A DNA stretch of 30,698 nt from Saccoglossus kowalevskii. Taxonomy: Eukaryota > Hemichordata > Enteropneusta > Harrimaniidae. Positions 690 through 30,698 of this stretch are shown piece by piece (the stretch's first letter is position 1; every line of letters begins with the position of its first letter). The notes under the pieces were generated by a model. It was given only the letters and a program-made list of their open reading frames with translations. It ran no database searches and was not told the DNA's origin. The stretch lies in contig NW_003149269.1 in the NCBI RefSeq assembly GCF_000003605.2, positions 376,760-407,457 on the forward strand. The letters are read 5' to 3'. The position numbers were made by a program, and so were the translations under genes.

Positions 690-1890
690 TTGATAGACCT
701 TTTGAAATAAAACTTTGCTGATGTTTTTGACTTTCTCTTCCATATTTACCACATTAACTGTGGTAGCCATATTTCTGGTATTTTACGGTCGAATATGGTG
801 AGAAGCAATGCAGACAACTTAATTGTTCAGTGGACGTGGTTTGGAGAAAACGTTATATTTTCATGCCTCAACCTAACTTTTTTTGTTTGACAGCAAAGAT
901 TTTATGACATTTTGAACACTTTTCCAATTTGAGCACTTTCTATTTGTGTTAACTTTGGTAAAAATTATATTTGCAACTTCTTCATGAACCAATCATTTAC
1001 TTTTCTGCGTCATATGCAGGTACGTTTAACATAGTTCTGTCAGATTAGTTTATTTCATGACAACATAATTGTTGGTAAAAATGTGGCCATATAAGCATAT
1101 GTCGCTTCATGGGTGTGATATCAGTTGGATCAATTGAACAATTTGTCTGATGAAGGTGACATTGATAACATTTTTTTGGTCATGTCAATATCAACTAAAT
1201 TCATATCTCTCCTATATTCTAACAAGAATGATTTTTGAATTTTAAAATCAAATCGCCACAAACGGCTATATTTTTATATACACATACCTGGAATCATCAT
1301 GAATGTGCTTTGAATGACACCATGTGATAACGAGGTTTGCTGAAAACTAATAGCCCCACTATACCTCCCATCCACACCATCTTACTACAGCGTGTGTAGT
1401 GGTGGGTGTAGAATGCTATGTGATCATTATATCGGCCAGTCGAACGTCCACCTTCTCCAGGCTAATCGAATCGATGTTACTGTCATGGTGTCATTGAGTA
1501 GTGTTATGTTATTAGAAAAAAACTGTAATTTAAATATGACATTAATTATTGTATATTATTGTATTTATTACTTGACGTATCACTAACCATTGAATATTAC
1601 TGAATATAAATAGAAATAAGATGAAATAGAACTGTTTTACAATCGTACAGTTACAGGTATATAACATCCAATACGTTACAACTACATGTAGACTTTATCA
1701 GATAAACATTAAAGAGCCATCCTGACGTGAGAACTAAGTTAAGAATGGATGTGTAGTTTACAGAAATGAAATACTTCAATACTAATTTTTCTATTCACAG
1801 CAATTATTTGTATTGTAGTAATAGTAGGTGATATACCACATGTTAAGTTGCGTTTGAAGTCTAGTACAGTGTACTCTAATTTGAATAACA
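690..1890 (+). repeat. Duplicated 5' flank module, copy A
   Basis: This upstream block recurs before genes B and C. Positions 700-930 match 13325-13540, sharing for example GCTGATGTTTTTGA and GGTGAGAAGCAA. Positions 1570-1890 match both 6850-7136 and 13755-14100, sharing the AAGAATGGATG-type and GTGATATACC-type stretches. Copy A has about 630 bp between the two matching parts, against about 215 bp in copy C. The shared order shows that the genes were duplicated together with more than 1 kb of upstream DNA, which probably includes the promoter. I cannot place a transcription start. Confidence 0.65.
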
Positions 1891-1977
1891 ATGAGGCAGT
1901 ACTTACACTGCGAGTTCCTCTATGAAGGAAATAGCGTCGCGGTATTGCGTCACCTGTACGGTCGATATTGCTTCAGA

Positions 1978-2340
1978 ATGTTACTTAACGTTGTGTTATT
2001 CTGTATCGGGGTTTTACCAAGTATTGCAACTCCTACTATTCAGTTCAGCCTCAGGACACAATGGAACACGGGAATAATAGATGAATTGTTACATCAATTA
2101 CGTGGGGTCTGGGCAAGTAGTATCTTGGATGAAAGACGGAAATGTTATTCCACTGAAATGAGTACCAGTGCTGACAACATTGACACACCATGATACTCCA
2201 TAATCGATGACGTTACTGCACAGTTTACATTACAAATAACATATATTACTGAGTCTACGGCTGTATTCGACAGTGGACAATACCAATGTGTTGTGACTTT
2301 CAATAACAATGAGGTCATCGGATTTGACAGAACGCGTAAT
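1978..2340 (+). pseudogene. Ig receptor pseudogene A (signal peptide and Ig1 remnant)
   Basis: This is a broken copy of the cluster's Ig receptor, closest to gene B. The ATG at 1978 sits just after a CTTCAG tract, as in B. It opens a signal-peptide-like stretch (MLLNVVLFCIGVLPSIATP). The middle of Ig domain 1 is scrambled by several small deletions relative to B. The frame resumes at STSADNID and meets a TGA at 2191-2193, where paralogues have CGA (Arg of the SRYSII motif). After that stop the reading continues in frame through the hallmark AVFDSGQYQCVVTFNN. Homology ends near 2340 after a deletion that joins the end of Ig1 to the NEPxTRN linker. Ig2, Ig3, stalk, membrane helix and tail are absent. 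It is non-functional as a receptor; a small secreted product cannot be excluded but is unlikely. Confidence 0.85.
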
Positions 2341-8600: not shown

Positions 8601-10331
8601 ATGATACTAAACGTTATGTTACTCTATATCGGGGTGAGTGTGGGATTATTCGTTTTACCAAATATTGCAACGCCTACTATTCAAGTTCAGCCTCAGAATA
8701 CTAATGTTAACCTGACTGAAGGACACAGTGGGGCACGGGTACAATGGATTAATTGTTATATCAGTAACATGGAGTCTGGGCAAGTCGTGTCTTGGAAGAA
8801 AAACGAAATTGTCATAAGTTATGACACTGACATGATTGCCAGTGCTGACAACATTGACACATCACGATACTCGATAATCCATTACGCTGCTGTACAGTTT
8901 TCATTACAAATAACAGGTATTACTGAGTCCACGGCTGTATTCGACAGTGGGCAATACCAATGTGTGGTGACTTTCAATAACATTGAGGTCATTGGATCTG
9001 ACCTGGTTCACCTCTACATATACGTTGAAAAAACATACAATCCAACTTGTCAAACCAGTATACCGTCAGATAAAGAGGTACAAGAAAGCGATACGAGAAT
9101 ATTCACTTGTAAAAGTAAGTTTATATTGTCACCACAAGTCGTACTCCAATGGTTCAGAAATGATATAAATAGTGATCCACTCACAACGTCAACACCATCC
9201 ATTGTTGATAGCATGCTGATAACGACGTACACGTGGACGGCAGTGAAGGTAGATGAAGATGTTACGTTCTACTGTATAGCAACACACGAATCGTGGCAGT
9301 CACGTTATGCATGTCATGTTGGTCCATTTGTGATTCTATCAAAACCGGATGTAGTAGTTATACCTGCACAGCTAACACTTACTTCTCAGAATTACGCAAC
9401 GTTCATTTGCTCAGCATCTGATGAACCTGAACATTACAGTTATATGTGGAAATATGATGACGTCATTGTTGTATCAGGGGGACAATTTACATTTAATGCA
9501 GATAGAACTGTTCTAAATATTATTGATATATCCATCCACGATAATGGCCATCACATAATAACGTGTAGTGTACATAATTCAAATGGCATAGGAACTGGTA
9601 CTGCTGATTTATAGGTGTCATTTCCCACTACCACAGTCCACATTACTTCTGTCACTACTCATAATCACGTGGTATCAATGTCAACAAAGCAAGAATTGGT
9701 TACGAAACAAAAACGAAAAGAAACTAATAGTGATACACCAGTTACCATGTCATCTGAACCGTCTTATCGTTCACACATTCCAACCGATATACCAAGCATC
9801 TCTTCTTCACGCTCAACAAAAGATCGATCAAGTGTCCCCCTGATTGCTGGAGTAATGGTGTTTGTTCTGGTAGTGATCACCATGGCAATTGGAATATTAT
9901 TTGCATTAAGATGTCGAAAACAAAAACATAATGACGTAAACAAAAATAAAGATCCACAATCGTTGAGTGTTTATGAAGAAATTGAATGCCGTAAAACAGA
10001 TTTAGGCTACACTAATAATGCAAATCCCAACACAGCGCGTGACTTGAATGTAAATAATCCCACAACAATACAACGCACGCAATACGTGAATGCAGACGTT
10101 TACAGACAAGATGATGCAGACAACCAAGTCTTGGATGACAATGACAATACACAGATAAGTAGAATTGCTGATTACAGCAAAACACATAAAATCAGGGGTG
10201 GTGACGAAACCCACGTACATGAATATGTTAATGTAACCCATGGTAACAACAACAGCGAACATTATCAAAGTTTGGGTGAACGAAGTACTGACACTTATAT
10301 GACTTTAAATGCAAAGACATTAAGTAAATAA
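8601..10331 (+). CDS. Ig receptor B, ITAM-tailed, interrupted by one in-frame TAG
   Basis: Single-exon type I receptor of about 575 codons. The start at 8601 is chosen because it opens a signal peptide (MILNVMLLYIGVSVGLFVLP) aligned with the paralogues. Ig1 has C52 and C121 with DSGQYQC. Ig2 carries four Cys, and Ig3 ends in DNGHHIITC. At 9612-9614 a TAG stands where paralogues have a His or Tyr codon. The same frame then runs open for 238 codons: a Ser/Thr-rich stalk, a membrane helix (9834-9908) followed by RCRK, and a tail with eight tyrosines. These include SVYEEI, QYVNA, EYVNV and the terminal YQSL-x7-YMTL, which fits the ITAM spacing. As read, the first product is a 337-residue secreted ectodomain. 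Options are a recent pseudogene, stop readthrough, a soluble form, or a sequence error. Known: paired YxxL motifs recruit SH2 kinases. Inferred: an immune or self-recognition role. Confidence 0.8.
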
Positions 10332-10946
10332 CCATTTGGAATATGCTATGCAATGAAAGTTTGAATCATGATTTCACTCAATATTGCCCACGTTTTTAAG
10401 TTGGCGTCAACAGTAGATTTTAAATCAATTGCATGGCATTGTTGAGCAACTATTTCAAACTATTTCAATTCTGAACAAAAGTAAATGTAGTTCCACACTA
10501 TTTACATTAAATCCGGCAAATGAATTATGATGAATTTGACACTTGATAAATCTAAGATGCCATTTATGGAAGGTCGAGTGTTGCAATATCCATTAAAATA
10601 TTTATGTTCACGAATTTCATTCATATTAATAATTGGCACAAGACATATTTTATTCAGAATCCTTCATAGGCAATATGCATAAATTTTTCTTTGCTTTTCA
10701 AGCAGCATCAACGTGATTTTGAACCAATCCATGCTCATAGCTATGTTATATGTTTCATAGCTTACTTATTTTCCTCTTACTGGATTATTGTCCTTCACCT
10801 GTACAGCATCTGGTGACTTTAGCACAATGAAAGTCGCTGATAATTATAAGCACTTAAAAAAACAACAGATGGAAAATAACAGCAGACGACGCGGTTTTCC
10901 AAGCAGCGGGTAAACCATCGCTAATTGATTTAGCGACATTAAATTA
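10332..10946. other. 3' flank of gene B with a stray Ig3 fragment
   Basis: There is no gene here. Positions 10794-10816 are an isolated 23-bp identity to the Ig3 Cys region of the receptors (TTCACCTGTACAGCATCTGG...), with no receptor sequence on either side. Confidence 0.5.
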
Positions 10947-14136: not shown

Positions 14137-15890
14137 AAGTCGTGTCTTGGAAGAAAAAAGGAATTGTCATAAGTTATGACACTGACATGAGTAACATTGA
14201 CTTATCACTGTATTCTATAATCCACGACGTGTCTGCACAGTTTTCATTGCAAATAACAGGCACTACCATTCTGTGGTGACTTTCAATAACAATGACGTCA
14301 TCGGACCTGACCTGGCTCACCTCCACGTATATGTTGACCCACAAACATATACCCCTACATGTCGAACCAGTATTGAGTCTGGTGTAGAGGTACCAGAAGG
14401 TGATATTCTATACTGTAATATCCACTTGTACTAGTCAGTCTACATGATCACCACAAGTTGTACACACTTGGTTCATAGGTGAAATATTAGACACCCACTC
14501 GTGTCATCGACGTCTTACACAAGTGGTGGTATAGTAACAACAAACTGTTGGTGGACGGCAGTAAAAGCATATGAGAATGTACCATTTTTCTGTCAAGCTA
14601 AGAATACTCTGTGGTCCGGTGGCTATACATGTCAAGTTGGACAATTTGTAATTCTGTCAGAAGCAGCGAGGCTGACTCCTCATAATTACGCAACGTTCAC
14701 CTGTACAGCATCTGGTGAACCTGAACCTTACATTTATGTATGAAAATATGATGACATCATTGTTGAAACAGAAGTACATTCTATAAAATGCTATAAATAT
14801 TACTGACTTCTTCATCTATGATAACGGCCACCATACAATAAAATGTGAGGTTCAGAATTCCAAAGATGTAGGGCCTGATACTGCTTATTTATACGTGGGA
14901 ATTCCCATTACCACAGACACCGTCACCACCACTGCCTTCACTCACACAGCAACTTCTGTCTCTAGATCACTGGCAGTTGTGAGCATAGGTTTACCAAACA
15001 CGGGCACGACAAAAAAAACATGAACGTACATCATTTAAGACACCTGCTATTTCACCAACAAGCAACAAGGCGTTTAGCGCAACACCAAAGTCCGTATTAG
15101 GAACTGATGTTATAATAGTTGCTCCTCATAAAAATACAAGCAGAGAAAAACTACAATCCCGTTTGGAAAATGATTATGGAGAAATCGAGATGTGTGGGCA
15201 TGCTAGAACAGACACAGATACAGAACGAGTCATGAATGACGTAAGAGATGAAATTAATATGAAGGTTAAATTGGCGATACATCTTAGACGTGCTGATGCA
15301 ACTCCAAAAGGGAGTTTTGGGAGTTACAATAAACACGTCCAAAATGAAGATTACACCACATCTGGATGTAGTGATGTAGTCATGGATACACGGAGGGATG
15401 GCAACCAGGAAAACAACTTTTATAGCCAGGTAAATAAGAAAAAGAAAAGCTCTCCGGCCTTGATGAGCACTGACTGTGCAAATAACAATGAAGTACCATA
15501 AATAACCAGATCAAAGAAAAGTAAAGCCACAAGTAAAACCTAAACCGAACAGACCTACAACCCACAGTGCTGACACAGATCGAGATACTGACATTAAAAC
15601 AACTGAATCTGACGTCATACATTCGACCACTGATAATTCTAATGATTATGAAACCAAGTATATTCCAGGAAAGGAAATGTGACGTGATCACCAGCAAGTA
15701 TAGATTATCAGTTTTACAAGCGGACAACAATGCTGTTTTGTATGCAGATATTAAACCACCATAAAGTGACCACGCAGTAAATAATGCTGACATAACAATG
15801 TGGAAGGTCTGACCTACGCTGACATCGACTTCATTGACACAATAGAGGTGAAAGAGACATTGAATAGAGAGAGCGGAAGTAAAACTTTAA
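14137..15890 (+). pseudogene. Ig receptor pseudogene C with ITIM/ITSM-type tail
   Basis: This is a multiply broken receptor carrying the second tail class. At 14137-14144 (AAGTCGTG) the leader joins directly to mid-Ig1; in B the same octamer occurs twice, 229 bp apart. Signal peptide and half of Ig1 are therefore missing. Ig1 also lacks the ESTAVFDSGQYQ segment (about 14264). Ig2 has a small insertion near 14404-14420. Ig3 has a deletion in its start (14665) and TGA in place of the core Trp codon (14742-14744). A Thr-rich stalk follows, then a remnant of the membrane region, largely deleted. The tail reads LENDYGEIEMCGHA, NFYSQV, VLYADI (15735-15752) and LTYADI (15809-15826). The last motif, TMYAEV in the 24.1-kb copy, has been deleted. 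It is not functional but shows the design of an inhibitory-type partner to B, D and E. Confidence 0.85.
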
Positions 15891-16899
15891 TAATACAGAT
15901 ATAATATTGTACTATATGATGATGAAATCATCACACAATGGGTTGTTTGTGTCGAGTGAATGCACAGTAGCATGGAAATCGTGTTTTGGTAGTTGAAAAA
16001 TTGAATATTTCGAAATTAGTGTCAGAGGGGTCGTTGACTACATTTACCGCATTATTTTTAGCTCCAATGTCATCAAACAAAACTGAGCGAAGCTCATGGT
16101 TGACCACACATGTCGCCGTCAGACCGTCAGATTTGTTCATTTCATGACATCGCATGTGAACCTCTATTGTTGGGGAATATATTTGTCAAGGTCCCAGTTC
16201 AGGTTAATCTCAAGGTCACACGTTGATTAATGTGTATTGGGGTGAGCAGGTCAACCCTCAATGAAAGGTCAAGGTCATCTCAATATCACAAGTCACTTTG
16301 CTATATTTTCTAACTTTGTCATACCCAATTCAGTCACATATACAGAAACCAAATAATGCAAAAGTATAATCTAGTTTCAGCTTCAATTTCCTGTACACAT
16401 AAATATGTTTTCTCTTATGGGATTTGCCCTTCCAGTGACCATTGCCACAATTACTAAACACATTCCTCCTATTAACTGCCACTGTCCTCTTCACTTGTCA
16501 ATTACAGCGGATCTCTATGGACCACAAGTCGCTTGTTACTGACAGCGATAACATTTATTATACAATTCACTGACTAATATGTTTTCCAATTAGATTCAAT
16601 ATATTATTATTATATTCCTAAATACATATTCTGTTTATAACGATACATGTTTTCATTAATTTTAAAGAATATATTTTTACATTTTCTTTAATTTCACCTG
16701 TGAAAATTGTCTTTCAATATGCAGCTAAATTCACTACAGAATTTAACTGCAAGTACTTAACGAATATGAATATTGTGATTTCATAAAATAGCATTATAAT
16801 GATATACAAATAATTGTCTTAATTGCAAATTATTTCATGTAGCCTTGTTCGGCAATAAAATAACACAGATCTGAATATGTAGAGGAATATATATAGAAG
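15891..16899. other. 3' flank of C, with nuclear-receptor half-site cluster
   Basis: No gene is recognised. TCAAGGTC occurs at 16186-16193 and TCAAGGTCA at 16210-16218. AGGTCAAGGTCA, a tandem half-site, lies at 16266-16277. These match the half-site of orphan nuclear receptors but may be chance or a repeat. A minus-strand open frame at 15931-16155 has no recognised domain. Confidence 0.35.
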
Positions 16900-17480
16900 T
16901 AAATAAATTATTTTTTCATGAATATTAATGTGCTTTGCATGATAGCCACACGCTCTGTGACCAAATATGAGACATTACCAGTGATCAGAAACATAGTGTC
17001 AACACACAATCACTGTAAACACAATATTCACACGAACATAATTGTCATTTTTTTTTATATATCTGCTGTTTGTGTTTGTGTTTGTATTTTATAAAATTCT
17101 AGGCATAGATGTGTTGATTGCTTTAACTAAAATGTTTGTTTTTGCTTGACTGATGTGACTGGAGTCAACAGATCCATAGAGATAATAGGTTAATGGGATC
17201 GTGTCTTTGGAACTATTGTTTGACACACTTGAATAGACATTTATAGTGAGACACGCAAATAAACGTATCATTTGGCACTATGACAAGTCATTCACCTATT
17301 CAATGAGTATACCTCACGACTATGACCTACTTAACCGCAGTTAAAATCGTCTTTTCATGGCTTTATGATGGATAAAACATGTATTTAGTGGTTGTCAAAC
17401 ACGGTAACCAATATGATAGTTGTCATTGTGCTGTATTATACGGGGGAATCTAGTAATATCCATTTAGAGACAATGGTGTA
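16900..17480. repeat. 3' module M, copy after C
   Basis: This is colinear with 24560-25100 and 27440-27850. Shared stretches include the CATGAATATTAATG-like start, ATTTTATAAAATTC, GGTTAAYGGGRTCGTGTC, ACACACTTGAATAGA and CAAGTCATTCACC. It is non-coding, and an AAATAAACG stretch within it could serve as a poly(A) signal. Confidence 0.65.
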
Positions 17481-17510
17481 CTTATAATATGCTCCAAAAT
17501 TATATTGAAG

Positions 17511-17580
17511 CATTACATAGTTCGACCGATTCAACTAATCTTGACTCTTTGCTATTATTCTTGTAAAAAAATTATAGTGT
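17511..17580. repeat. 3' module N, copy 2 (partial)
   Basis: GCATTACATAGTTCGACCG and the following bases align with 10947-11015 and 27886-27955. Homology fades after about 17580. Confidence 0.45.
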
Positions 17581-19219
17581 AGTAATTCTAAGGACATAGA
17601 CGACGATTCGTTGTGAAGTTTGTTTGGATGTTGAAGAAGTCAAAGCTACTGAACAGTACTATGTACAAGCGATGAATCGACGTGCGTAGAAAAAGTGCTA
17701 CATACTGCTCACTATTGTGCTGATAGTTATTTATTTTGCTTTTATTTATTTACAAGAGTGCATTCTATGCCAACTATATTCGACCAAAGAGGAAACATAC
17801 ACAGGAAATTTATATCAAGGATAATATTCCTGAAAGATGATGAAAAATTGCTGACGTGAAGAAATTTATGTGGAAATACTGAAATCCCAAATAACTACAT
17901 TTTCTTCCATGAATATCCATGTCTTTTTAAGAACATCCTTATTGTATCACAGCCATTTTTAATATCGTATCACCAAAATTATTCACTAGAGATTAAGGTA
18001 GAGGAAAAGACAATTTTTAATCTTTTCCAGATTTTCAAAAAACCGATAAAATGATTATTGTGGACCTTGAAACATCATTCAAGCTTTTCAAATGATCGAT
18101 TATTTGGGCACGACGATGCTCAAATTAATGTTTTAAACGCTAACACAAATAATTAGGCTACAGCTTTGTGAATATTTAAAATAATGTGTATCTTTGATAC
18201 TACTTACATGATGACATCTTATGTGCATACTCTTGTTGACGATTCAGATTTTAACGGGTGATAAACTTCCAGTCGCAAACAATGCGTCCATTGTCACCAT
18301 TAATGTCAGTTAAGACTTCGTCGGGCAAACAAAGGCATAACTTTGCGTAACTCACTGTTAAATCAATTTTTTATTTCGAATTATTTTCCAATTCAATATT
18401 CTATTTTTCTAACACCATTATACTAACACAATATCGAGGAAAAGAAAGAAAGAAAGCGAAGACCAACTGCCAATGTGGTTAAAAAAAGATGGTGAGGTTG
18501 TGGTTCAATGCGGTCAATGCAATACTTTTACGCCATCATAACTGCAAAGTATTTACATCAAGTTATAGCTTTGATTCAGGCGTAGGCACAGTAAATAAAC
18601 AAAATATACTTGCTAATGAAAAAGAAAGAACGTAACCACGATAAAGCGTAGTCATATACAGTAAAAGTTTCAATTGGAAAACGATAAGTTTCATTCTAAT
18701 TTTGCGTAACGAACTTGGTAATTACATCGCCATCCATGAGGAAGCCGTAACTGGGCGACGCTTACCCATCATCTTGTTTTTCTTCCACCAAATTTAACGA
18801 GGAGTAGCTAAAGAAGGGACTGTTCTTTGCGATTTCTACGGCAACAGGCTATGGCCTTCTTGTCACACTTTGGAGCAGAAAATTGTTTCTTTGGTTTCAC
18901 CTTGATAATAGTTTTATTAGATCAGAAACACTTGAAGGATTAGCTTGTTTGTGAACAGTCAGCGTGTACAGTGTTTGGTAATGTTTGTCAGTGTGTTAAC
19001 CCTCGTTGGTTCTTGTATGTTTATAATAATGCAGCAAATTTGTAGAGTTTCATTATCCCAAAATTGTTTCGTTTTCGTTAGCAGCATAATGACGGTACAA
19101 AATCTGATTTTTAAAAAATAAAATACTATAATTGTCTGTTAAAGGTGTCATGTATGAAATAATTAGGGAACAAAGGCTTGATGTAGTAGTTGTTGTTCTT
19201 ATGCTTCGGCCAGAGAGTG
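17581..19219. other. Intergenic DNA, no gene recognised
   Basis: About 1.6 kb without a convincing frame or receptor homology. A short GAAA-rich tract occurs at about 18440-18456. Confidence 0.45.
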
Positions 19220-19579
19220 GTGGATTAATTAACATGTGTACGTTAAAGCCATTTTGTCAGAATATATTTGTTAGTTAAAATTATAACACAATGTCTCAGA
19301 TATGAGCATTCAAAAACTGAGAAATAAGTGCGTGACTCGACCCGGTCAATGGGCTCTGGTAGGAAATTATGGCAATGTATATTCCGATAACTCTGTAACA
19401 TTACTATTCAACACAGGTAGCTATATTGTTCATAGAGTGCGTATTTTGTCAATGTGGCCTTTCTTGTCATTTAAATAACAATACCGCAACCATACAGTGT
19501 TACCCGGATGGAGGAAGTAGCAACAAAACCACTCTACATTACTACTAGTGTTAATTTCTAGTGAAATAATTGCCTTGGC
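19220..19579 (+). promoter_or_regulatory. 5' flank of gene D
   Basis: This is shared with E (25180-25419) and with the orphan copy at 11390-11660. Closest to the gene, GTTACCCGGATGGAGGAAGTA (19499-19519) is conserved before E (GTTACCAGGATTGAGGAA) and F (GTTGCCCGGATTGAGGAA). A TTAATTTCTAG tract ends at 19561, 18 bases before the ATG. The conservation suggests core promoter or 5' leader; a 5' untranslated intron ending at this AG is possible. Confidence 0.45.
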
Positions 19580-21226
19580 ATGGCGTTCAAATGGAGATTA
19601 TTGCTTATCGTGTATGGTTTGTTAATCTTATGTGTTCCTGGTAGTTCATCGCCTGTTATTACTCGTCACCCCGTGGACCAATACGTTGACTTAACTGAAG
19701 GGAATAACGAATATGTGATACGATGGTTGGATTGTTATATTCAGAACTTAAATCTAGGCGACTTGGTGTCGTGGAAGAAAAACGGATATGTCATCATCAG
19801 TTATAATAATCATGCAAGTAGTACTGTTTATAACATGGATTCATCTCGATACTCAATAATACATGATGTGTCTACACAGTTTGCATTGTCAATAACAGGC
19901 ATTACTGAGTCTACGGCTGTATTCGACAGTGGGCAATACCAATGTGTGGTGACTTTCAATAACAATGAGGTCATCGAATCTGACCTGGCTCACCTGCACG
20001 TATACGTTGAACCAGAAACACGTAATCCTGCTTGTCAAACCAGTATTGAGTCTGGTGCAGAGATAACAGAAGGTGATACTGTGGTATTCACATGTACTAG
20101 TAAGTCTACAGGTTCACCTCAAGTTGTACACAAGTGGTTTAGGAATAATCTTTTCGAGACAATGTTATTTACTTTGTCATCATCAGTAATCAATGATATG
20201 CTATCAACGACGTACACATGGACGGCAATAAAATCTGATGAACATATTTTGTTTTACTGTTGGACAAATAACACACGATGGAACACTGGTTATTCATGTC
20301 AAGTTGGTCCATTCGTAATTCTATCGAAACCAGATGTAGTAGTTATGCCAGCACAGCTAAAACTTACTTCTCAGAATTACGCAACGTTCACCTGTATAGC
20401 ATCTGGTGAACCAGAACCATACAGCTATGTGTGGAAATATGATGACGTCTTTGTTGCATCAGGGGAACGATTTGATTTTAATGTAGATAGATCAACTCTG
20501 GACATTAAAGATATCGATATCCAGGATAATGGCGATCATACAATAACATGTGAGGTACAGAATGCTTATGGTGTAGGAACTGATACAGCTTACTTACATG
20601 TAGCAATAATTGTTACCATTACTAAGACAACGCCCACTAATAATTATATCTCCAGGTTACTGATAGATTCTTCACCAATCCAAGGTATTACATCAGTAAT
20701 AAATACTACACCGATCATCACATCACGTGGTACGTCTGGTTTAAATCACACAGCCTCTCTAATTGGTAATGGAGTATTGACATGCTTATTGCTAATTATA
20801 ATTACACTATTTGGAGTTTACTTTATAATTAATTGTCGTAAACACAGACATGTAAACAATAACACAAACAATGAACCACTGCCATTGAGTGTTTACGAGA
20901 ACATTGGTAACCTTTCAATAGACGTAGGTGACATCGATACTATAACTCCACACACAGTATGTATGACACATAATAAACCTACGGATTCTGAGCATATGCA
21001 CAATAACATAACAGATGGCGCAGACAATCATGCCTGTGATGAAAATGGTCAGGATGTGGAAAATGGCGGATTACACAGTTCAAGGTTAACCAACGAAGGC
21101 GAAACACAACACGACTATATTGATGTAATCCATGAAAACAATGAAGACAGCGAACATTATCAAAGTTTGGGTGTACGAAGTAATGACACTTATATGACAT
21201 TACACATAGATGCCTTGATTGAGTAA
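19580..21226 (+). CDS. Ig receptor D: intact three-Ig transmembrane receptor with ITAM-like tail
   Basis: This is the only uninterrupted copy, with 548 residues in a single exon. A signal peptide spans residues 1-24. Ig1 is V-like (C52-C122, W65, DSGQYQC at 116-122). Ig2 has C172-C227 and W186, plus a second conserved Cys pair, C152 and C240, that could form an extra disulfide. Ig3 is C2/I-like (C272-C324, W285). A Thr/Ser stalk (343-390) leads to a membrane helix (about 394-417) followed by NCRKHRH. The tail has four tyrosines. Y439 lies in SVYENI, which fits the ITIM pattern. Y513 lies in DYIDVI. Y527 and Y538 form YQSLGVRSNDTYMTL, two YxxL motifs seven residues apart, the ITAM spacing. The extracellular part should bind a ligand and the tail should recruit SH2 proteins once phosphorylated. 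Ligand and pathway are unknown; an immune or allorecognition role is inference. Confidence 0.93.
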   Translation: MAFKWRLLLIVYGLLILCVPGSSSPVITRHPVDQYVDLTEGNNEYVIRWLDCYIQNLNLGDLVSWKKNGYVIISYNNHASSTVYNMDSSRYSIIHDVSTQFALSITGITESTAVFDSGQYQCVVTFNNNEVIESDLAHLHVYVEPETRNPACQTSIESGAEITEGDTVVFTCTSKSTGSPQVVHKWFRNNLFETMLFTLSSSVINDMLSTTYTWTAIKSDEHILFYCWTNNTRWNTGYSCQVGPFVILSKPDVVVMPAQLKLTSQNYATFTCIASGEPEPYSYVWKYDDVFVASGERFDFNVDRSTLDIKDIDIQDNGDHTITCEVQNAYGVGTDTAYLHVAIIVTITKTTPTNNYISRLLIDSSPIQGITSVINTTPIITSRGTSGLNHTASLIGNGVLTCLLLIIITLFGVYFIINCRKHRHVNNNTNNEPLPLSVYENIGNLSIDVGDIDTITPHTVCMTHNKPTDSEHMHNNITDGADNHACDENGQDVENGGLHSSRLTNEGETQHDYIDVIHENNEDSEHYQSLGVRSNDTYMTLHIDALIE

Positions 21227-21462
21227 CTCTGCGGCCATGATAGTTACAATTGTTAGCGAGAAATACTTGTGTAATGTGTTTTAAATGACTGGTTCAGTTC
21301 TTAAGAATAAGTCGAGCAGTTTAGTTTTTGTATCAAAATCGCTCAATCGAATAATTATCGCATTATCATACCGCTTTATTTTTTTCTATAAAATTAGTTT
21401 TGACTAAGACACTGATAATTGGAATACTGCTAATGACTAATGACTAATGAATGTAATGACTT

Positions 21463-22000
21463 CAGCCAGGTTTAGAAAATGATTATGAAGTAATCAATAT
21501 GTGTGTGCATGCTGGAACCAACACAGATACAAGACAGGTCAACTTAGAAGATGTCATTGAACATGGCAGTGATGACATAAAAGATGAAATTAATATGAAT
21601 TTTAAGTTGGCAATCAATCTAAGACGTACTGATGCAACTCTAAAACATACTTATCGTCGTTCAGGATTTGAGAATAACAATAGTGACGTCCAAAATGAAG
21701 ATGAAAGCATCCTTTGAGAATGTACGTGAACATCAGAACAGTCTAGTCATGGCTACAGAGAAGGATGACAACCAGGAAACTGAACAAGAACACGTTTATG
21801 CGCAGGAACTCTCCGACTTTGATGAACACTGACTTTGTTATTAATAATAATCAAATCAAAGAGAAAGTCAAGCCAAAAGTTCAAACTAACACGACTAGTG
21901 CAGACACAGATCTAACTACTTCAAGTGGCATCAAAACAACTGAATGTGACGTCACACACGTACCCACAGTGAAAGTAATTGATAATTTTAATAGTAAAAA
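21463..22000 (+). pseudogene. Type II receptor tail relic 1
   Basis: This begins 236 bp after the stop of D. It aligns with the tail of C from LENDY onward (LENDYEVINMCVHA against LENDYGEIEMCGHA). It continues through DEINMNFKLAINLRRTDAT, and after a frameshift near 21712 through VREHQ and EQEHVYAQ. After another break it runs through NQIKEKVKPKV and KTTECDVTHV. Homology stops near 22000, before the YADI motifs. No type II ectodomain precedes it. It is most simply the remains of a deleted type II gene. A less likely alternative is an alternative 3' exon for D, since CTTCAG precedes it at 21460-21465. Confidence 0.7.
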
Positions 22001-22399
22001 AACTTTTTGTTTTATGGAAGTAGAAAATGTTTCACTTTTGGGTAGTAATTTTAAATTGTATAGACTATCTAGAAACGGTTATTTTTTGAACGTTATATTC
22101 GGTGGCTGAATGCGTAATAATTTTTTTATTTGCTTGTTTTTTCTTATTGGCAGTGATGCCATTTGCAACACTTTTGATTTGGTATTATTATAGGATATAT
22201 TATTATTATTATTTTAGAAATGCACAAGCCCAAACAAATTATATTGTATGTCTATTATAAATTTGTTTTAAAATCGGTATTTACGATTAAAATTAACGAA
22301 TAATATAGCAAATAAAATAGCACAAAAATGTACTTGTAACATATATTATTAAACAGTATTGAATTTACGGCTACTACATTTTTTTATGAGTGAATATAT
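22001..22399. other. AT-rich spacer, no gene recognised
   Basis: T- and A-rich sequence with an AAATAAAATAG stretch near 22312 that could act as a poly(A) signal. Confidence 0.35.
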
Positions 22400-22755
22400 T
22401 TACTTCTTATGAATATTAATGCTTTACTTTGAATAAATGTGACACACTTGTCTGAGTGCAAGCATTGCTGTCAACAGCAACACAGAATGTTAACAGGTCG
22501 TGTTTGGTGCTCCATTGTCAGACACACTTGAATAACTATTTAGATACATTAGTGAACGGGTCATGTGACACCGTAATTTACATCTTATGAATATTAATGC
22601 TTTACTTGGCATAAATGTTATACACTTGTCTGGGTGCAGTCAATGCTGTCAACATCAAGACAGAAGGTTAACAGGTGGTGTTTGCTGCTCCATTGTCAGA
22701 CATACTTGAATAACTATTTAGATACATACAAGAACGTGTCATGTGACACCGTAAC
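22400..22755. repeat. Tandem duplication, two 178-bp units
   Basis: Two copies start at about 22400 and 22578. Both contain CTTATGAATATTAATGCTTT, then ACACTTGTCTG, GCTGTCAACA, GTTAACAGGT, CTCCATTGTCAGACA, GAATAACTATTTAGATACAT and finally CATGTGACACCGTAA. They are diverged by roughly a tenth. The unit is a shortened relative of 3' module M found after C, relic 2 and E. Confidence 0.8.
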
Positions 22756-23432
22756 ATGTCATTCACCTATTCAATACGTATGTATTGTGATTATTGGTCT
22801 GTTTAATCAAACAAAATGCTTGCATGTGTTGGTCAATGACGCTATCAGAATTGGGAAAGTGATAGTGTGTGTTATTCTTTATCCCACAAGTCAGCAAAAT
22901 CCTTATAGAGAAAATAGTTCTCTTGAAATTGTTTAGAATCACCACATTGTACGAGAAAGAATCAAATGAAAGTTACAAAGGCATCCAGCCTTTTGAGCAT
23001 GCTATATTTGTAAGCTACAGATAATAATCTACTATAAAATTGAAGTATCATTTTAAAAGCCAAGAAAGCCTGCATACGCTCCTTTTTGCTCAATATAGTC
23101 CCGATTGCCTCAAATTGTGCTTTATCCTACACATACAATTCAATGTAAATGTAAACTCAGGTCGATCTCACATTTTTCTTCGCTTCTGTTGAACACATGT
23201 ATGTCTCAGTGAGGTGAAAGGTGGAACTATTCGCTTCATCTTGTTGTTTAATACGTCTCTTGTTGATTGCTTGTAGCAAATCTGCGTTTGTCGTTTATGA
23301 ATATTTGAAACACATATTTGGGCTTCAGGGTGATGTTTATGTTGTCTTATGCTACCACCATACTTAAGAATATTTTGTAACAGCTTGCTGATGCTCGATA
23401 TCACTATGTCTTTTTTATTCTAATTCACTGTC
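22756..23432. other. Spacer, no gene recognised
   Basis: The start continues module M (CATTCACCTATTCAAT; TAGAATCACCACAT near 22933 matches 25107). The rest has short frames on both strands without domain features. Confidence 0.4.
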
Positions 23433-24167
23433 GTGTTTCTAAGACGTACTGTTTCAACTAAAAAAATATACTTGTCGTGTTTCATGATTTGCGAAATGCA
23501 GCTTGCACCACGTCTGGATATAGGGATTATGTATCGTATGATCAGGTTAAGAAGAAACTCAAGATACCAGCATCAATTGAGAAATTACGTGAGCATGAGT
23601 TCACCATGGTCATGGATACAGAGAAGGGTGGCAACCGTGAAGACGAACAAAATCACGTATTTGCACAATAAGGAAAAATAAGAACTCTCCGAATTTGCCG
23701 AGCACTGGCCATGTTGATGGAAGCAAAGTATCATATCGGGGTGATAATTATCAAATCAAAGAGAAAGTTAAGCCAAAAGTTAAACCGAAACTGAACAAAC
23801 TCACAGTGTTGACACAGATCGAGATACTGACATTAAAACAACTGAATGTGACGTCACACACTTGACCACAGAGAAAGTCACTATTAATTTCATTGTTTAT
23901 GATATTGTAAATATTCCAGTCACATAAACGACACGTGACCACACACATATGGCAAATGACAAGTCTACAGCAGCTGACACTGCTTTACATGCAGATGTTA
24001 AACCATCGCCAAGTGATTGAGACCAGACAGTAAACAATGTAGACTCTAGGCATAGTAATGTGGAAGGTCTGACCTACGCTGACATCAACCACAATCGCAC
24101 AATGGAGGTGAAAGGAACATTGAATAGAGAGAGTGAAGAAACAATGTACGCGGAAGTAAAACTGTAA
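23433..24167 (+). pseudogene. Type II receptor tail relic 2, ITIM/ITSM motifs
   Basis: This is the most complete copy of the C-terminal half of the type II tail. It includes YRDYVSYDQV, REHEFTMVMDTEKGG, EDEQNHVFAQ (Tyr replaced by Phe) and, after frame breaks, IKEKVKPKVKPK and KTTECDVTH. It then reads ALHADVKPSPSD, with His replacing the Tyr seen in C. A TGA at about 24018 interrupts it. The same frame then runs through LTYADI (24069-24086) and ends in TMYAEVKL with a TAA at 24165-24167. LTYADI fits the ITIM pattern and TMYAEV fits the ITSM pattern TxYxxV. No Ig domains or membrane helix precede it. It is non-functional, but it preserves the ancestral tail's end, lost in C. Confidence 0.75.
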
Positions 24168-24559
24168 TAATATACGGATGACATCGTGTTCATTAACCAG
24201 TAGTTGCACAATTGTATAGATTTTGAACATAGTTTATCTGAAAAAAAAAATTGTGAACGTCTGCGACTGCATATTACACATTTACTCACATTGACATTGG
24301 ATTTGTGTTTCTGTAGTTATTTGGTAAGAGTAATTTTTCACTCAAGATATTACTTTGAAATGTTTGGAATATCTTGAAATTTGTTGTCAGTGTCTGTTTG
24401 TACCGCATTGTTTTATTGGCTGTGATACAAATTTCCATATATTTTTCTGTTTTCAAATTAGATTCGATACAGAAATATAACGATACTTTCTCTTTAATTT
24501 TCATCATATCAATGATAACGTGTATACTATTTGAAAGTATCTAGGATATATTGAAGTAA
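24168..24559. repeat. 3' flank of tail relic 2, shared with E-side copy
   Basis: TTCATTAACCAGTAGTTGCAC (24189-24209) and the following A-tract region match 27340-27440, showing that tail and 3' flank were duplicated together. No gene is seen. Confidence 0.5.
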
Positions 24560-25110
24560 ACAAATTTAATTGTTATGATTATTAATGAGCTAGATTTGCA
24601 TGATTGCTACAAATACTGTGACAAACTATGAGGTAATACTAGTGATCAAAAGCATTGTATCAAAACACAATCATTGCACATACAATGTAAATACAAACAT
24701 CATGGTCAAAATAAAAGCATAATTTTCTATATATTTGTTTTTTTTTATAAAATTCGAAGCATAGACATGTTGATCGTTTTTACAATAAAACTTGTTCTTG
24801 CTTGTCTGGTGTAATGTAGTAAACATATCAATAGAGACAGGTGGTTAACGGGGTCGTGTCTGTGGAACTATTATTTGACACACTCGAATAGACATTTAGA
24901 ATAAGACACAAATAAACGTGTCATGTGACACCATGACAAGTCATTCACCAATTCAATGCACATCCCTCAGCATCATGACCTACTACTCCTTTCCATTGCA
25001 TTATGATCAATGCAGATGACAACTGACTCTTAGCACTGTGCTATATAATACAGAGAAAGCCAGTAAAATTCATATAGAGACAATTTTTACTTGTAATTGT
25101 TCAGAATCAC
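24560..25110. repeat. 3' module M, copy before E
   Basis: This aligns with 16900-17400 and 27440-27850. Shared stretches include ACACAATCATTG, ATTTTATAAAATTCG, GTTAACGGGGTCGTGTC, CGTGTCATGTGACACCATG and CCTCAGCATCATGACC. Contains AAATAAACG (possible poly(A) signal). Confidence 0.7.
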
Positions 25111-25123
25111 CACATCATGCGTT

Positions 25124-25172
25124 AACTTCTCATAATTACGCAACGTTCACCTGTACAGCATCTGGTGGATCT
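25124..25172 (+). pseudogene. Isolated Ig3 fragment
   Basis: About 49 bp identical or nearly so to the start of Ig3 in the receptors. It encodes LTSHNYATFTCTASG around the first Ig3 cysteine. The CAT codon in place of CAG links it to C rather than to D or F. It sits between module M and the 5' flank of E with no other receptor sequence beside it. Confidence 0.75.
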
Positions 25173-25179
25173 GACTTGG

Positions 25180-25419
25180 ACTTGGTTTGTTAAATAGGGT
25201 ATGGTAGGACATCATGGCAAGTTGTAATCCGATAACTGTGAGGCAGACTATAAAATACCGTAAATTATAAAGCCCATAACGTGCGTGATTTGTCATTATG
25301 ACCTTCCCATTTAAATAACAAAAACACAACCATATAGTGTTACCAGGATTGAGGAAATAACAATACAACTACTCCTCGTCATTATCACTGTTTATTCCAG
25401 GTGCAAAACTTGCATTGGA
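25180..25419 (+). promoter_or_regulatory. 5' flank of gene E
   Basis: This is colinear with the flank of D (19350-19579): a CCGATAACT element, CATTTAAATAACAA, then GTTACCAGGATTGAGGAA (25339-25356). A TTTATTCCAG acceptor-like tract ends at 25400, 19 bases before the ATG. Confidence 0.45.
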
Positions 25420-27017
25420 ATGGCATTTAAATCCAGTTTATCACTTATCTTGATTGGTTTGTTATTTCTATGTGTTCATGCTGGTGCAGCACATGTTATT
25501 ACTATTGAACCTGTGGACAATTACGTTGATTTAACTTAAGGAAATAACGAATACTTGACACGATGGATACATTGTTATATCACTAACTTAGAGATAGGCG
25601 ATTTGGTGTCATCATCAGTTATGATAGTCATGCAAGTAGTACTATTTATAATATTGATTCATCACGATACTCGATAACCCAGAATGTACCTACGCAATTC
25701 CAATTACGACTTACAGGCATTACCGAGTCTACGGCTGTATTCGACAGTGGACAATACCAATGTGTGGTGACTTTCAATAACACTGAGTTCATGGGATCTG
25801 ACCTGGCTTACCTCCACGTATATGTTGAACCACAAACACGTAATCCTACTTGTCAAACCAGTATTGAGTCTGGTTTAGAGGTACCAGAAGGTGACACTGT
25901 AATATTCACATGTACTAGTAAGTCTACAGGGTCACCACAAGTCATGCACACATGGCATAGAGAGGATATAAATGCCGCTTTGCTATTTTCATCTACATCT
26001 TACACAAGTGGTGCCATAGTGACAACGACTTATTGGTGGACGGCAGTAAATGCAGATAAAGATGTTATGTTTTATTGTCGAGCAAGAAACACTAAATGGG
26101 ATACAGGTTATACATGTCAAGCTGGTCCATTTTTAATTCTAACAAAACTTGATGTAGTAGTTTTGCCTGCACAACTAACACTTATTTTTCAGAATTACGC
26201 AACGTTCAACTGTACAGCATCTGGTGAACCTGAAACGTACACTTATGTGTGGAAGTATGATGACGTCATTGTTGAAACTGAAGGACGATTTGTACTTAGT
26301 CTAGATAATACTACATTAGGTATTAATAATATAGATGTTCGTGATAATGGCTATCATAGAATAACATGTGAGGTACAGAATTCCTATGGTGTAGGAACTG
26401 ATACAGCTGACTTACATGTTGCAATAATTGTTGCCATTACTGAAACAACTCCCACTACTAACTATATGTCCAGCTTATTGATAGATTCTTCACCAATCCA
26501 AGGCAGTATTACATCATGTGGTACGTCTGATGTAAATCATACAGCATCTTTAATTGGTAATGGAGTATTGACATGCTTATTGCTAATTATAATTACACTA
26601 ATTGGAGTATACTTTATAATTAAATGTCGTAAACACAGACATATAAACAATAACACTAACAATGACCCACTGCCATTTAGTGTTTACGAGGACATTGGTA
26701 ACCGTTCAATAGATATAGGTGATACCATTACTACAACTCCACACACAGTATGTATGGTGCATAATAAATCTACAGATTATGAGAATATGCAAAATAACCT
26801 CATAGATGGTGCAGACATCCATGCTTGTGATGAAAATACTGAGGATTTGGAAAATGACGGAATACGCAGTTCAATGTTAACCGACGAAGGCGAAACAGAA
26901 CTAGACTATATCGATGTAATCCATGAAAACAATAAAGACAGCGAACATTATCAAAGTTTGAGTATACAAAGTAAAAACACTTATATGACATTAAATATAG
27001 ATGCCTCGAGCAAATAA
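25420..27017 (+). pseudogene. Ig receptor E, ITAM-tailed, with two lesions in Ig1
   Basis: A close paralogue of D. The ATG at 25420 opens a good signal peptide (MAFKSSLSLILIGLLFLCV). Codon 40, Glu in D, is TAA (25537-25539). At about 25608-25613 a 22-bp segment that includes the Ig1 core Trp is missing relative to F, and GTC repeats flank the loss. This shifts the frame. Downstream of the deletion every codon to the TAA at 27015-27017 is open: the rest of Ig1 (DSGQYQC), four-Cys Ig2, Ig3 (TASGEPE, DNGYHRITC), stalk, membrane helix followed by KCRKHRH, and tail. The tail has SVYEDI, TDYENM, DYIDVI and YQSLSIQSKNTYMTL, keeping the ITAM spacing. No downstream start would restore a signal peptide, so this allele should be null. 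The intact remainder suggests it died recently, or that an intact allele exists. Confidence 0.82.
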
Positions 27018-27154
27018 CCGTTTGGTTATAATATAAAGTAGTGACTATTTTTGTTGATAATAGTAATAATAACTTGTGTAACTTTTTAATGAGTGGTTCA
27101 GAAATAATGTAGTTCTTAGTAATATTTCATTTGAGTCTGTGGTTTCCTCGGTAT
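27018..27154. other. 3' untranslated/flank region of E
   Basis: It shares ACTTGTGTAACTTTTTAATGA-like and GTGGTTCAG stretches with the 3' flank of D (21270-21300), so part of the 3' untranslated region is conserved between D and E. Confidence 0.4.
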
Positions 27155-27330
27155 GTTAAACCATTGCTAAGTAATTTAGACCAGACAGTAAATAATGCAG
27201 ACAAAGATTCTAGGCATAGTAATGTGGCAGGTCTGACCTATGCTGACCTCGAGGCAATGACATAATGGAGGTGAATAGAACATTGAATAGAAACAATGTG
27301 CATGGAAGTAAAACTTTAGTAATATACATA
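27155..27330 (+). pseudogene. Type II receptor tail relic 3 (LTYADL end)
   Basis: This is the last part of the type II tail. It reads KPLLSNLDQTVNNADKDSRHSNVAG followed by LTYADL (27233-27250), a textbook ITIM hexamer, then breaks up. The final TMYAEVKL is only recognisable as ACAATG...GCATGGAAGTAAAACTT near 27293-27318. It lies about 140 bp after the stop of E, just as relic 1 follows D. Confidence 0.7.
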
Positions 27331-28636: not shown

Positions 28637-28719
<83 letters not shown>

Positions 28720-28737
28720 ATTAATTAATTAATTAAT
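28637..28737. repeat. (TAAA)n microsatellite with (TTAA)n end
   Basis: About 21 uninterrupted TAAA units at 28637-28720, followed directly by four TTAA units at 28721-28736. The purity suggests a young, length-variable tract. Confidence 0.95.
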
Positions 28738-29676: not shown

Positions 29677-30698
29677 ATGATATTTAATAGAAGTTTAGTT
29701 ATTGTCGTGGGTAGTTTGATAACACTATGTGTTCCTGGGAGTGCATTACCTGTAATTACCATTCAACCCGGGGACCAATACGCGGATTTAACTGAGAGAA
29801 ATAATGAATACTTGACACGATGGATGAATTGTTACATCACTAACTTAGGGATAGATAATGTGGTGTCGTGGAAGAAAGACGGAACTGTCATCATCAGTTA
29901 TGATAGTCATGCAAGTAGTACTATTTATAATATTGATTCATCTCGATACTCAATATTCAACAATATATCTACGCAGTTTGTATTAGAAATAAAAAGCATT
30001 GCTGATTATACTGCTGTATTCGACAGTGGACAATATCAATGTGTGGTGACTTTCAATAACAATGAGGTCATCGGATCTGACATGGCTCACCTCCACGTAT
30101 ACGTTGAACCACGAACACGTAATCCTACTTGTCACACCAGTATTGAGTCAGGTATAGAGGTACACGAAGGTGATACGGTAATATTTACCTGTATTGGCAA
30201 GTCTACAGGGTCACCACAAGTCGTACACACGTGGCATAAAGATGGAATAAATGGTACTCCCCTAGTTTCATCTGCATCTTACACAAGTGGCGGCATAGTG
30301 GCAACGACATACTGGTGGACGGCAGTAAAAGTAGATGAACAATTTCTGTTTTACTGCCAAGCTAAAAACACTTGATGGAACACTGGTTATACATGTCATG
30401 TTGTTCCATTTGTAATTCTATCAAAACCGGATGTAGTAGTTATGCCTACACAGCTAACACTTACTTCTCAGAATTACGCAACGTTCACCTGTACAGCATC
30501 TAGTGAACCTGAACCTTACAGTTATGTGTGGAAATATGATGACGTCATTGTTGAAACAGGAGGACGATTTGTTATTAACCTATACAATACTACATTAGTT
30601 ATTAAAGATATAGCAGTTGATGACAATGGAATCCATACAATAACATGTGATGTACATAATACCCATGGTATAGGGACTGATACTGCTGATTTACATAT
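29677..30698 (+). pseudogene. Ig receptor F (partial, runs off the window) with one TGA
   Basis: The ATG at 29677 is preferred over the upstream GTG at 29644 because it starts the signal peptide (MIFNRSLVIVVGSLITLCV). Ig1 (DSGQYQC) and most of the four-Cys Ig2 are open. At 30373-30375 a TGA replaces CGA/AAA (Arg or Lys before WxTGYTC), a single CGA-to-TGA type change. The same frame then stays open to the window end through the rest of Ig2 and all of Ig3 (TASSEPE, DNGIHTITC). Stalk, membrane helix and tail lie outside the window, so its tail class is unknown. Read as is, it encodes a 232-residue secreted two-domain fragment. It is either a recent pseudogene, a nonsense allele or a sequence error. 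Confidence 0.8.

Follow-up and report, generated by a model that had tools for sequence, protein, structure and literature searches.

Receptor units in the window

The window analysed in this study is a 30,698-bp stretch of the Saccoglossus kowalevskii genome (C3945:376760-407457, within a 572-Mb genome of 4,830 contigs; GC 0.351). Its + strand is a tandem array of immunoglobulin (Ig) receptor genes whose tails fall into two classes: type I, which carries an immunoreceptor tyrosine-based activation motif (ITAM), and type II, which carries immunoreceptor tyrosine-based inhibitory and switch motifs (ITIM and ITSM). The units in the window are ordered B (I), relic 4 (II), C (II), D (I), relic 1 (II), relic 2 (II), E (I), relic 3 (II), and F (class not read), with the type II gene G farther along the contig; type II remnants thus lie directly downstream of B, D, and E. 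Ig matches were obtained from Pfam in each of B, D, E, and F, and above the curated cut-off only Ig families were matched in B, D, E, F, and G. For the receptor genes, open frames were the sole basis for judging signal peptides and single exons.

Within the window only D was seen intact: B, E, and F are each interrupted by a stop, a mere fragment of A is left, and every one of the five type II copies is damaged. Gene D (type I; 19580..21226, + strand) is a single 548-aa open frame from the ATG at 19580 to the stop at 21224-21226, with three Ig domains, the membrane span VLTCLLLIIITLFGVYFII, and a tail of 130 aa, whose ITAM lies at 21158..21202 (+; YQSLGVRSNDTYMTL). Gene B (type I; 8601..10331, +) has three Ig domains and is interrupted by a TAG stop at 9612-9614, beyond which the stalk, membrane span, and ITAM tail are still open (ITAM at 10263..10307, +; YQSLGERSTDTYMTL). 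Gene E (type I; 25420..27017, +) is damaged by a TAA stop early in the frame and by a deletion near 25612, and is otherwise open through the ITAM tail (ITAM at 26949..26993, +; YQSLSIQSKNTYMTL). The ITAM-type tails that the sequence-only reading had assigned to these three genes were borne out: YQSLx7YMTL is present in 3/3, seven residues from the end, with a shuffle P of 0.009-0.019 each. The best hydropathy of the membrane span is 2.89-3.04 in B, D, and E. The ratio of nonsynonymous to synonymous divergence (dN/dS) of the type I tails is 0.57-0.74. A genome search with the D tail returned four places, namely B, D, E, and a broken gene on contig C2784. In the two pairs compared, type I tails showed no DNA homology to type II tails (250/500 and 421/500 shuffles).

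Gene C (14137..15910, +) is a type II pseudogene without the start and half of Ig1. The remaining ectodomain contains stops and is followed by a G-like stalk and a type II tail from 15160, in which VLYADI (15735..15752, +) and LTYADI (15809..15826, +) were found. Relic 1 (21458..21988, +), behind D, is the N-terminal part of a type II tail. Relic 2 (23438..24167, +) is a type II tail without an ectodomain (LTYADI, 24069-24086; TMYAEV, 24141-24158), and its pieces share 43-72% protein identity with intact type II tails. Relic 3 (27153..27319, +) lies behind E and retains the C-terminal part of a type II tail, approximately its final 55 residues, with LTYADL at 27233-27250 and TMCMEV at 27293-27310. 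These four broken copies had been recognised from the letters, and the motif positions then given (15735-15826, 24069-24167, 27233-27250, and 21463-22000) were confirmed, with relic 1 set at the boundaries given above; a fifth copy, however, had been missed. This copy, relic 4 (10794..10937, +), lies behind gene B and consists of an exact 23-nt Ig3 fragment (10794-10816) fused to a type II tail piece (10816-10937). At the DNA level, blastn showed C and relics 1-3 to be homologous, with E values of 2e-20 to 1e-56 for the best pieces. The score of the relic 4 tail piece was reached by 0/500 shuffles against relic 2 and by 0/500 against relic 3; its best match to the C tail was not significant (165/500 shuffles).

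The motifs had been described as repeated across the copies. This stands for LTYAD[IL], which is retained in all three window type II copies reaching that position, but not for the other two. LYADI is retained in one of the three copies reaching it (C; relic 2 has LHADV, and the relic 4 stretch is unrecognisable), and TMYAEV likewise in one of three (relic 2; relic 3 has TMCMEV, and C lost the motif in a 17-nt gap). Differences between C and relic 1 number 27, 30, and 26 by codon position over 105 codons, with a dN/dS of 1.18, in an alignment from which out-of-phase columns were dropped and which is poor at the final codons of the first block. From this even spread and ratio, it appears that neither C nor relic 1 was functional over the greater part of their divergence.

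C had also been offered as proof that a type II tail was attached to the same ectodomain. Alone it is weak evidence, as its membrane span was not found (best hydropathy 1.03, compared with the values of B, D, and E), and homology of C and relic 1 upstream into a membrane span was not significant (440/500 and 203/500 shuffles). The claim held once the C stalk had been matched to the stalk of intact G over 75 nt (0/300 shuffles). The stalks of B and E do not match that of G significantly (52/300 and 28/300 shuffles), and that of D matches weakly (4/300). Because C is without a membrane span and a five-row ectodomain tree including C gave no resolved branching, the paired-receptor claim is doubtful when judged on the window alone.

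Tails and ectodomains across the genome

Intact type II genes were found elsewhere in the genome, as the sequence-only reading had proposed to check. G was found by reading the flank of the window, and L015 and L017 by a genome search with the tail. G lies ~21 kb past the window end on the same contig (657 aa stop to stop, 625 aa from the ATG; L011:1064-2941). It has two Ig domains and a stalk, and the type II tail that follows its membrane span carries VSYEEV, NVYARV, ICYAVV, LTYADL, and TMYAEV. On shuffling of the G tail, P was 0.003 for three ITIMs, 0.02 for five YxxPhi motifs, and 0.11 (not significant) for the single ITSM. The genome search with the G tail gave 10 matches, counting G and the window relics. 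L015 (770 aa open, C2784) and L017 (699 aa open, C3769) each have three Ig domains (by eye) and G-type motifs. LTYADL and the C-terminal T[ML]YAEV are retained in all three intact tails, and dN/dS for the three pairs of these tails is 0.71, 0.42, and 0.49. Three units stand in succession on one strand of C2784, namely a type II relic, a type I gene in broken form, and the intact L015. A diverged type II-like member, L023 (G000:C3983, about 160.3-162.3 kb), has its ectodomain and tail in two overlapping frames, a layout that may reflect a frameshift or a small intron.

A genome search with the D ectodomain gave 60 matches, from the upper part of which ten further open genes were drawn for long open frames. 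Their tails carry the ITAM ending in L043, L047, L050, and L051, the ITIM ending in L045 and L049, both in L042, and neither in L044, L046, and L048. Seven of these ten ectodomain-picked genes thus have one ending or both and three have neither, which is the fairer count; L046 and L048 are matched by loose patterns only. L042 (G000:C3769:334250-336250) is an open gene with an ITAM-like tyrosine pair (spacing 10) and the type II ending LTYADL/TLYTKV, and its tail either arose as a natural hybrid or is a type II tail that has been shortened.

With the classes defined by the very motifs counted, the following figures are descriptive and no test: the seven type II tails (G, L015, L017, L042, L045, L049, and L023) all have L[TS]YA[DE]L and a last tyrosine 5 residues before the stop, at a spacing of 22-29, and the seven type I tails (B, D, E, L043, L047, L050, and L051) all have YQx[LI]-x7-8-YxxL. 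A charged residue inside the membrane span is absent in 12 of the 13 genes examined, L042 having one near the edge. The spans of the six type I genes examined have no internal charge, and the ITAM is in their own tails; either class would therefore signal through its own tail. The endings NVEGL[TS]YA[DE]L and YQx[LI]x7-8YxxL are common to genes with distant ectodomains, and each tail class therefore looks like one old cassette. For the same reason, the independent origin of activating and inhibitory partners that had been suggested fits poorly within this genome.

The core of the type II ending is rare outside the family. In 26,788 background residues, [ILV]xYA[DE][ILV] was found 0 times. GLTYA[DE]xD, searched as a 24-base pattern, was found at 7 places in 572 Mb, all in members of the receptor family (reversed control, 0). 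The first genome pattern, CTNTAYGCNGAYATH, was dropped, as it gave 744 matches vs 79 in controls, and 94 of the 100 places listed were on one contig, in a ~52-bp repeat. The unit of this repeat (G000 contig C326) carries CTGTATGCCGACATC or near variants and swamps motif searches.

Comparison of the ectodomain tree with the tail class, which had likewise been suggested, showed the two classes to be interleaved. In a tree of 15 ectodomains, 6 class changes were counted over 13 labelled rows, at least as many as with shuffled labels (means 5.3 and 4.9), and type I as a single clade was rejected by the approximately unbiased test (p-AU 8e-18). Without L043, L023, F, and L042, 5 class changes were counted over 11 rows (type I clade, p-AU 5e-46). 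C, the relics, the C2784 type I gene, L044, L046, and L048 are outside both trees. Opposite classes grouped together as B with L015 (99/97; second tree, 92/95), L045 with L050 (100/100), and L049 with L047/L051 (100/100). G groups only weakly with D, E, and F.

In each of these three groupings, highly similar ectodomains are joined to opposite tails. The tract of B common with type II L015 (8932..9405, +) has 1 difference in 293 bases over 8932-9224. Identity between B and L015 is 72% before 8915, 98.1% over 8915-9330 (8 differences/416), and 86% after, and the alignment stops at 9636, short of the stalk and tail. The longest identical run is 155 nt (0/10,000 permutations). Compared with its type I relative on C2784, B is 84-89% identical elsewhere and 74.5% within 8915-9330. 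L045 (ITIM) and L050 (ITAM) are adjacent on C1345, ~4 kb apart in opposite directions, and both are open; their synonymous divergence (dS) is 0-0.165 across residues 41-281 and >1 after. L049 vs L051 and L047 is similar and less sharp (dS 0.07-0.56 across residues 41-200, mostly >0.5 after). B and L015 thus share a conversion-like tract, and another pair shows a clear break. Both classes have open-frame members, the membrane-distal Ig domains are common to opposite classes, and opposite classes are clustered on C3945 (the window contig), C2784, and C1345 (L045/L050).

Paired receptors, competing explanations, and known systems

The paired-receptor layout with two tail classes proposed earlier is supported by the intact type II genes and the interleaved ectodomain tree, and neither of the two conditions named earlier as refuting it was borne out. 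It is real at the level of sequence, and the direction of signalling is read from the motifs. We consider it very probable that the array is one of paired receptors in two tail classes with opposite signalling and conversion-matched binding domains. Its members would be single-open-frame receptors composed of a signal peptide, Ig domains, a stalk, a membrane span, and a tail. Type I ends in its own ITAM (YQx[LI]-x7-8-YxxL), and type II carries several ITIM-like motifs and ends in L[TS]YA[DE]L with the last tyrosine five residues from the stop. Partners may bind a common ligand via Ig1-Ig2. Type I tails would recruit a Syk-like tandem-SH2 kinase for activation, and type II tails an SHP-like phosphatase for inhibition. 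Such phosphatases are reported to be bound in mammalian T cells by amphioxus BbLcLRR, an ITIM-bearing leucine-rich repeat receptor of a non-vertebrate chordate (PMC8211107). Gene conversion would hold the binding domains matched amid gene birth and death.

Several observations weigh against this reading. All five window type II copies, as well as B, E, and F, are broken. The type I tails (9912-10331, 20834-21226, and 26625-27017) all carry SVYE[NDE]I, which matches the ITIM pattern, and the tail of E has an additional LDYIDV fit and YENM, so that the tail classes are not motif-pure. L044, L046, and L048 belong to neither class, L042 is mixed, and the class of L023 depends on a tail in a different frame from its ectodomain. 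The ten open genes were not drawn at random, and the 7/7 tail counts are circular in the way stated above. For relic pairs other than C and relic 1, the dN/dS of short blocks (7-22 codons) spread between 0.42 and 2.52, on codon numbers too small for a judgement.

The best surviving alternative is that an inhibitory gene gained an ITAM tail upstream, the relics being fossil former tails left in the 3' untranslated region (UTR), as in cattle KIR. An ITAM tail followed by a dead type II tail is indeed found in all three window type I genes, the 3' UTR is common to D and E up to near the relic (0/500 shuffles), and cattle KIR are reported to have had their tails replaced repeatedly through recombination (PMC4258407). 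However, the relic 4 Ig3 fragment and the class-specific stalks favour separate neighbouring genes, and both endings are old, being common to genes with very distant ectodomains. Such tail switching is improbable. Because relic 4 is fused to the exact 23-nt Ig3 fragment, the type II relics downstream of the type I genes look like the remains of neighbouring type II genes, not second tails. No ectodomain trace was found at relics 1 and 3, which presumably have the same origin.

The tyrosine motifs may also be chance matches on ordinary adhesion molecules, with YxxPhi tyrosines serving endocytosis or adaptor binding and no activating/inhibitory pairing. The loose patterns mean little alone, as the six-frame background per 100 residues is 0.40 for ITIM-like and 0.13 for ITAM-like matches; the single ITSM of the G tail is often expected by shuffling, and the Pfam and PDB matches are generic Ig. 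Nevertheless, the endings are position-exact in both classes, the intact tails are under constraint according to dN/dS, the core pattern is specific to the family within the genome, and ectodomains are common across classes. Chance matching is therefore unlikely, and slightly more so than a switch of tails.

The least tenable explanation is one of alternative last exons, by which a single gene would end either in the ITAM tail or in the type II tail downstream of it and each locus could make either receptor. It can draw on the type II remnants that follow each of the three type I genes at 0.1-0.6 kb on its own strand, on an acceptor-like sequence ahead of relic 1, and on the motif-swapping splicing reported for Botryllus FcoR (PMC12065747), but was set aside as highly improbable given that relic 4 is joined to an Ig3 fragment and so probably had its own ectodomain, that the stalk of C matches type II G while that of D matches weakly and those of B and E not significantly, that C and relic 1 diverge neutrally, and that the intact type II genes are complete open frames.

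Among known systems, CEACAM pairs are the closest working likeness of the paired-receptor array. Mammalian CEACAM1/CEACAM3-type pairs have opposite ITIM/ITAM tails and gene conversion of the binding domain (PMC2832619), Xenopus ceacam pairs are described likewise (PMC5112662), and the same kind of conversion is reported for CD300A/CD300C in primates (PMC12447643). In the CEACAM pairs, as here, clustered Ig genes carry ITIM/ITSM or ITAM in their own tails, and the binding domains appear to be matched by conversion, with few synonymous changes. The Ig domains and tails of CEACAM are on separate exons, whereas here the ectodomain, membrane span, and tail are in one open frame. On balance, we lean towards a non-vertebrate single-open-frame family that would match activating (own ITAM) and inhibitory (multi-ITIM and ITSM) partners by an exchange between old tail cassettes that is limited to the membrane-distal Ig domains, i.e., CEACAM-like mechanics without the exon-by-exon structure. 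A PDB search with D, which covers solved structures only, gave generic Ig matches (Robo, titin, and NCAM) and no specific kinship to vertebrate CEACAM, Siglec, or KIR ectodomains.

Alr genes of Hydractinia are multi-exon genes. Compared by description only, they resemble the present array as clustered invertebrate Ig receptors (PMC12065747; PMC11999971), with ITAM and ITIM reported on candidate genes (PMC12065747). Botryllus FcoR is likewise an invertebrate Ig-superfamily system with ITIM or activating tyrosine tail motifs in a polymorphic cluster, read as inhibitory and activating; it differs in its composition of V-Ig, sushi, and two C2-Ig domains, its hemITAM, and its exchange of motifs partly by splicing (PMC12065747). 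In contrast, the genes here have two-tyrosine ITAMs, and no sushi domain was found by Pfam in B, D, E, F, and G. Oyster CgIgIT2 is an invertebrate Ig receptor with its own ITAM (PMC11999971), but it has five Ig domains, and no inhibitory partner is described in the part of that report covered (PMC11999971). Cattle KIR form a birth-and-death array with many dead copies, in which tails of both kinds are exchanged by recombination (PMC4258407). Activating KIR are short-tailed with predicted adaptor signalling (PMC4258407), whereas the activating-type tail here has its own ITAM. A single-open-frame family with conversion tracts between opposite tails was not found in the literature searched, most subscription papers being outside the reach of that search.

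If the proposed reading is true and signalling experiments confirm it, paired receptors with conversion-matched ligand-binding domains would not be a vertebrate speciality. L045/L050 offers a direct test case, with near-identical Ig1-Ig2, opposite tails, and each gene one open frame expressible without introns. The finding would link the oyster ITAM receptor, the Botryllus ITIM/hemITAM receptors, and Hydractinia Alr to a full pair system, and it raises the question of whether pathogen mimicry or self-recognition drives the pairing.

Other features of the window

Gene A is a fragment (1820..2328, +) consisting of the 5' flank and part of Ig1, as recognised by blastn self-comparison, with no significant type II tail match downstream. 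Gene F (29677..30698, +) has three Ig domains and a TGA stop at 30373-30375, and its tail is outside the window. A lone Ig3 fragment (25125..25174, +; 50 bp, 94% to C) directly precedes gene E and is probably a trace of another lost unit.

No relatives were found in the collections of genome contigs and viral contigs scanned, and Rfam gave nothing at the gathering score. A search for the major histocompatibility complex class I family gave 0 matches, with 0/14 controls matched either.

At 22398-22754, a 179-bp unit is present in two head-to-tail copies that are 89% alike and in part similar to the 3' flank of type II tails. Between relic 3 and gene F, a long AAAT run (4-base unit) occupies 28640-28720.

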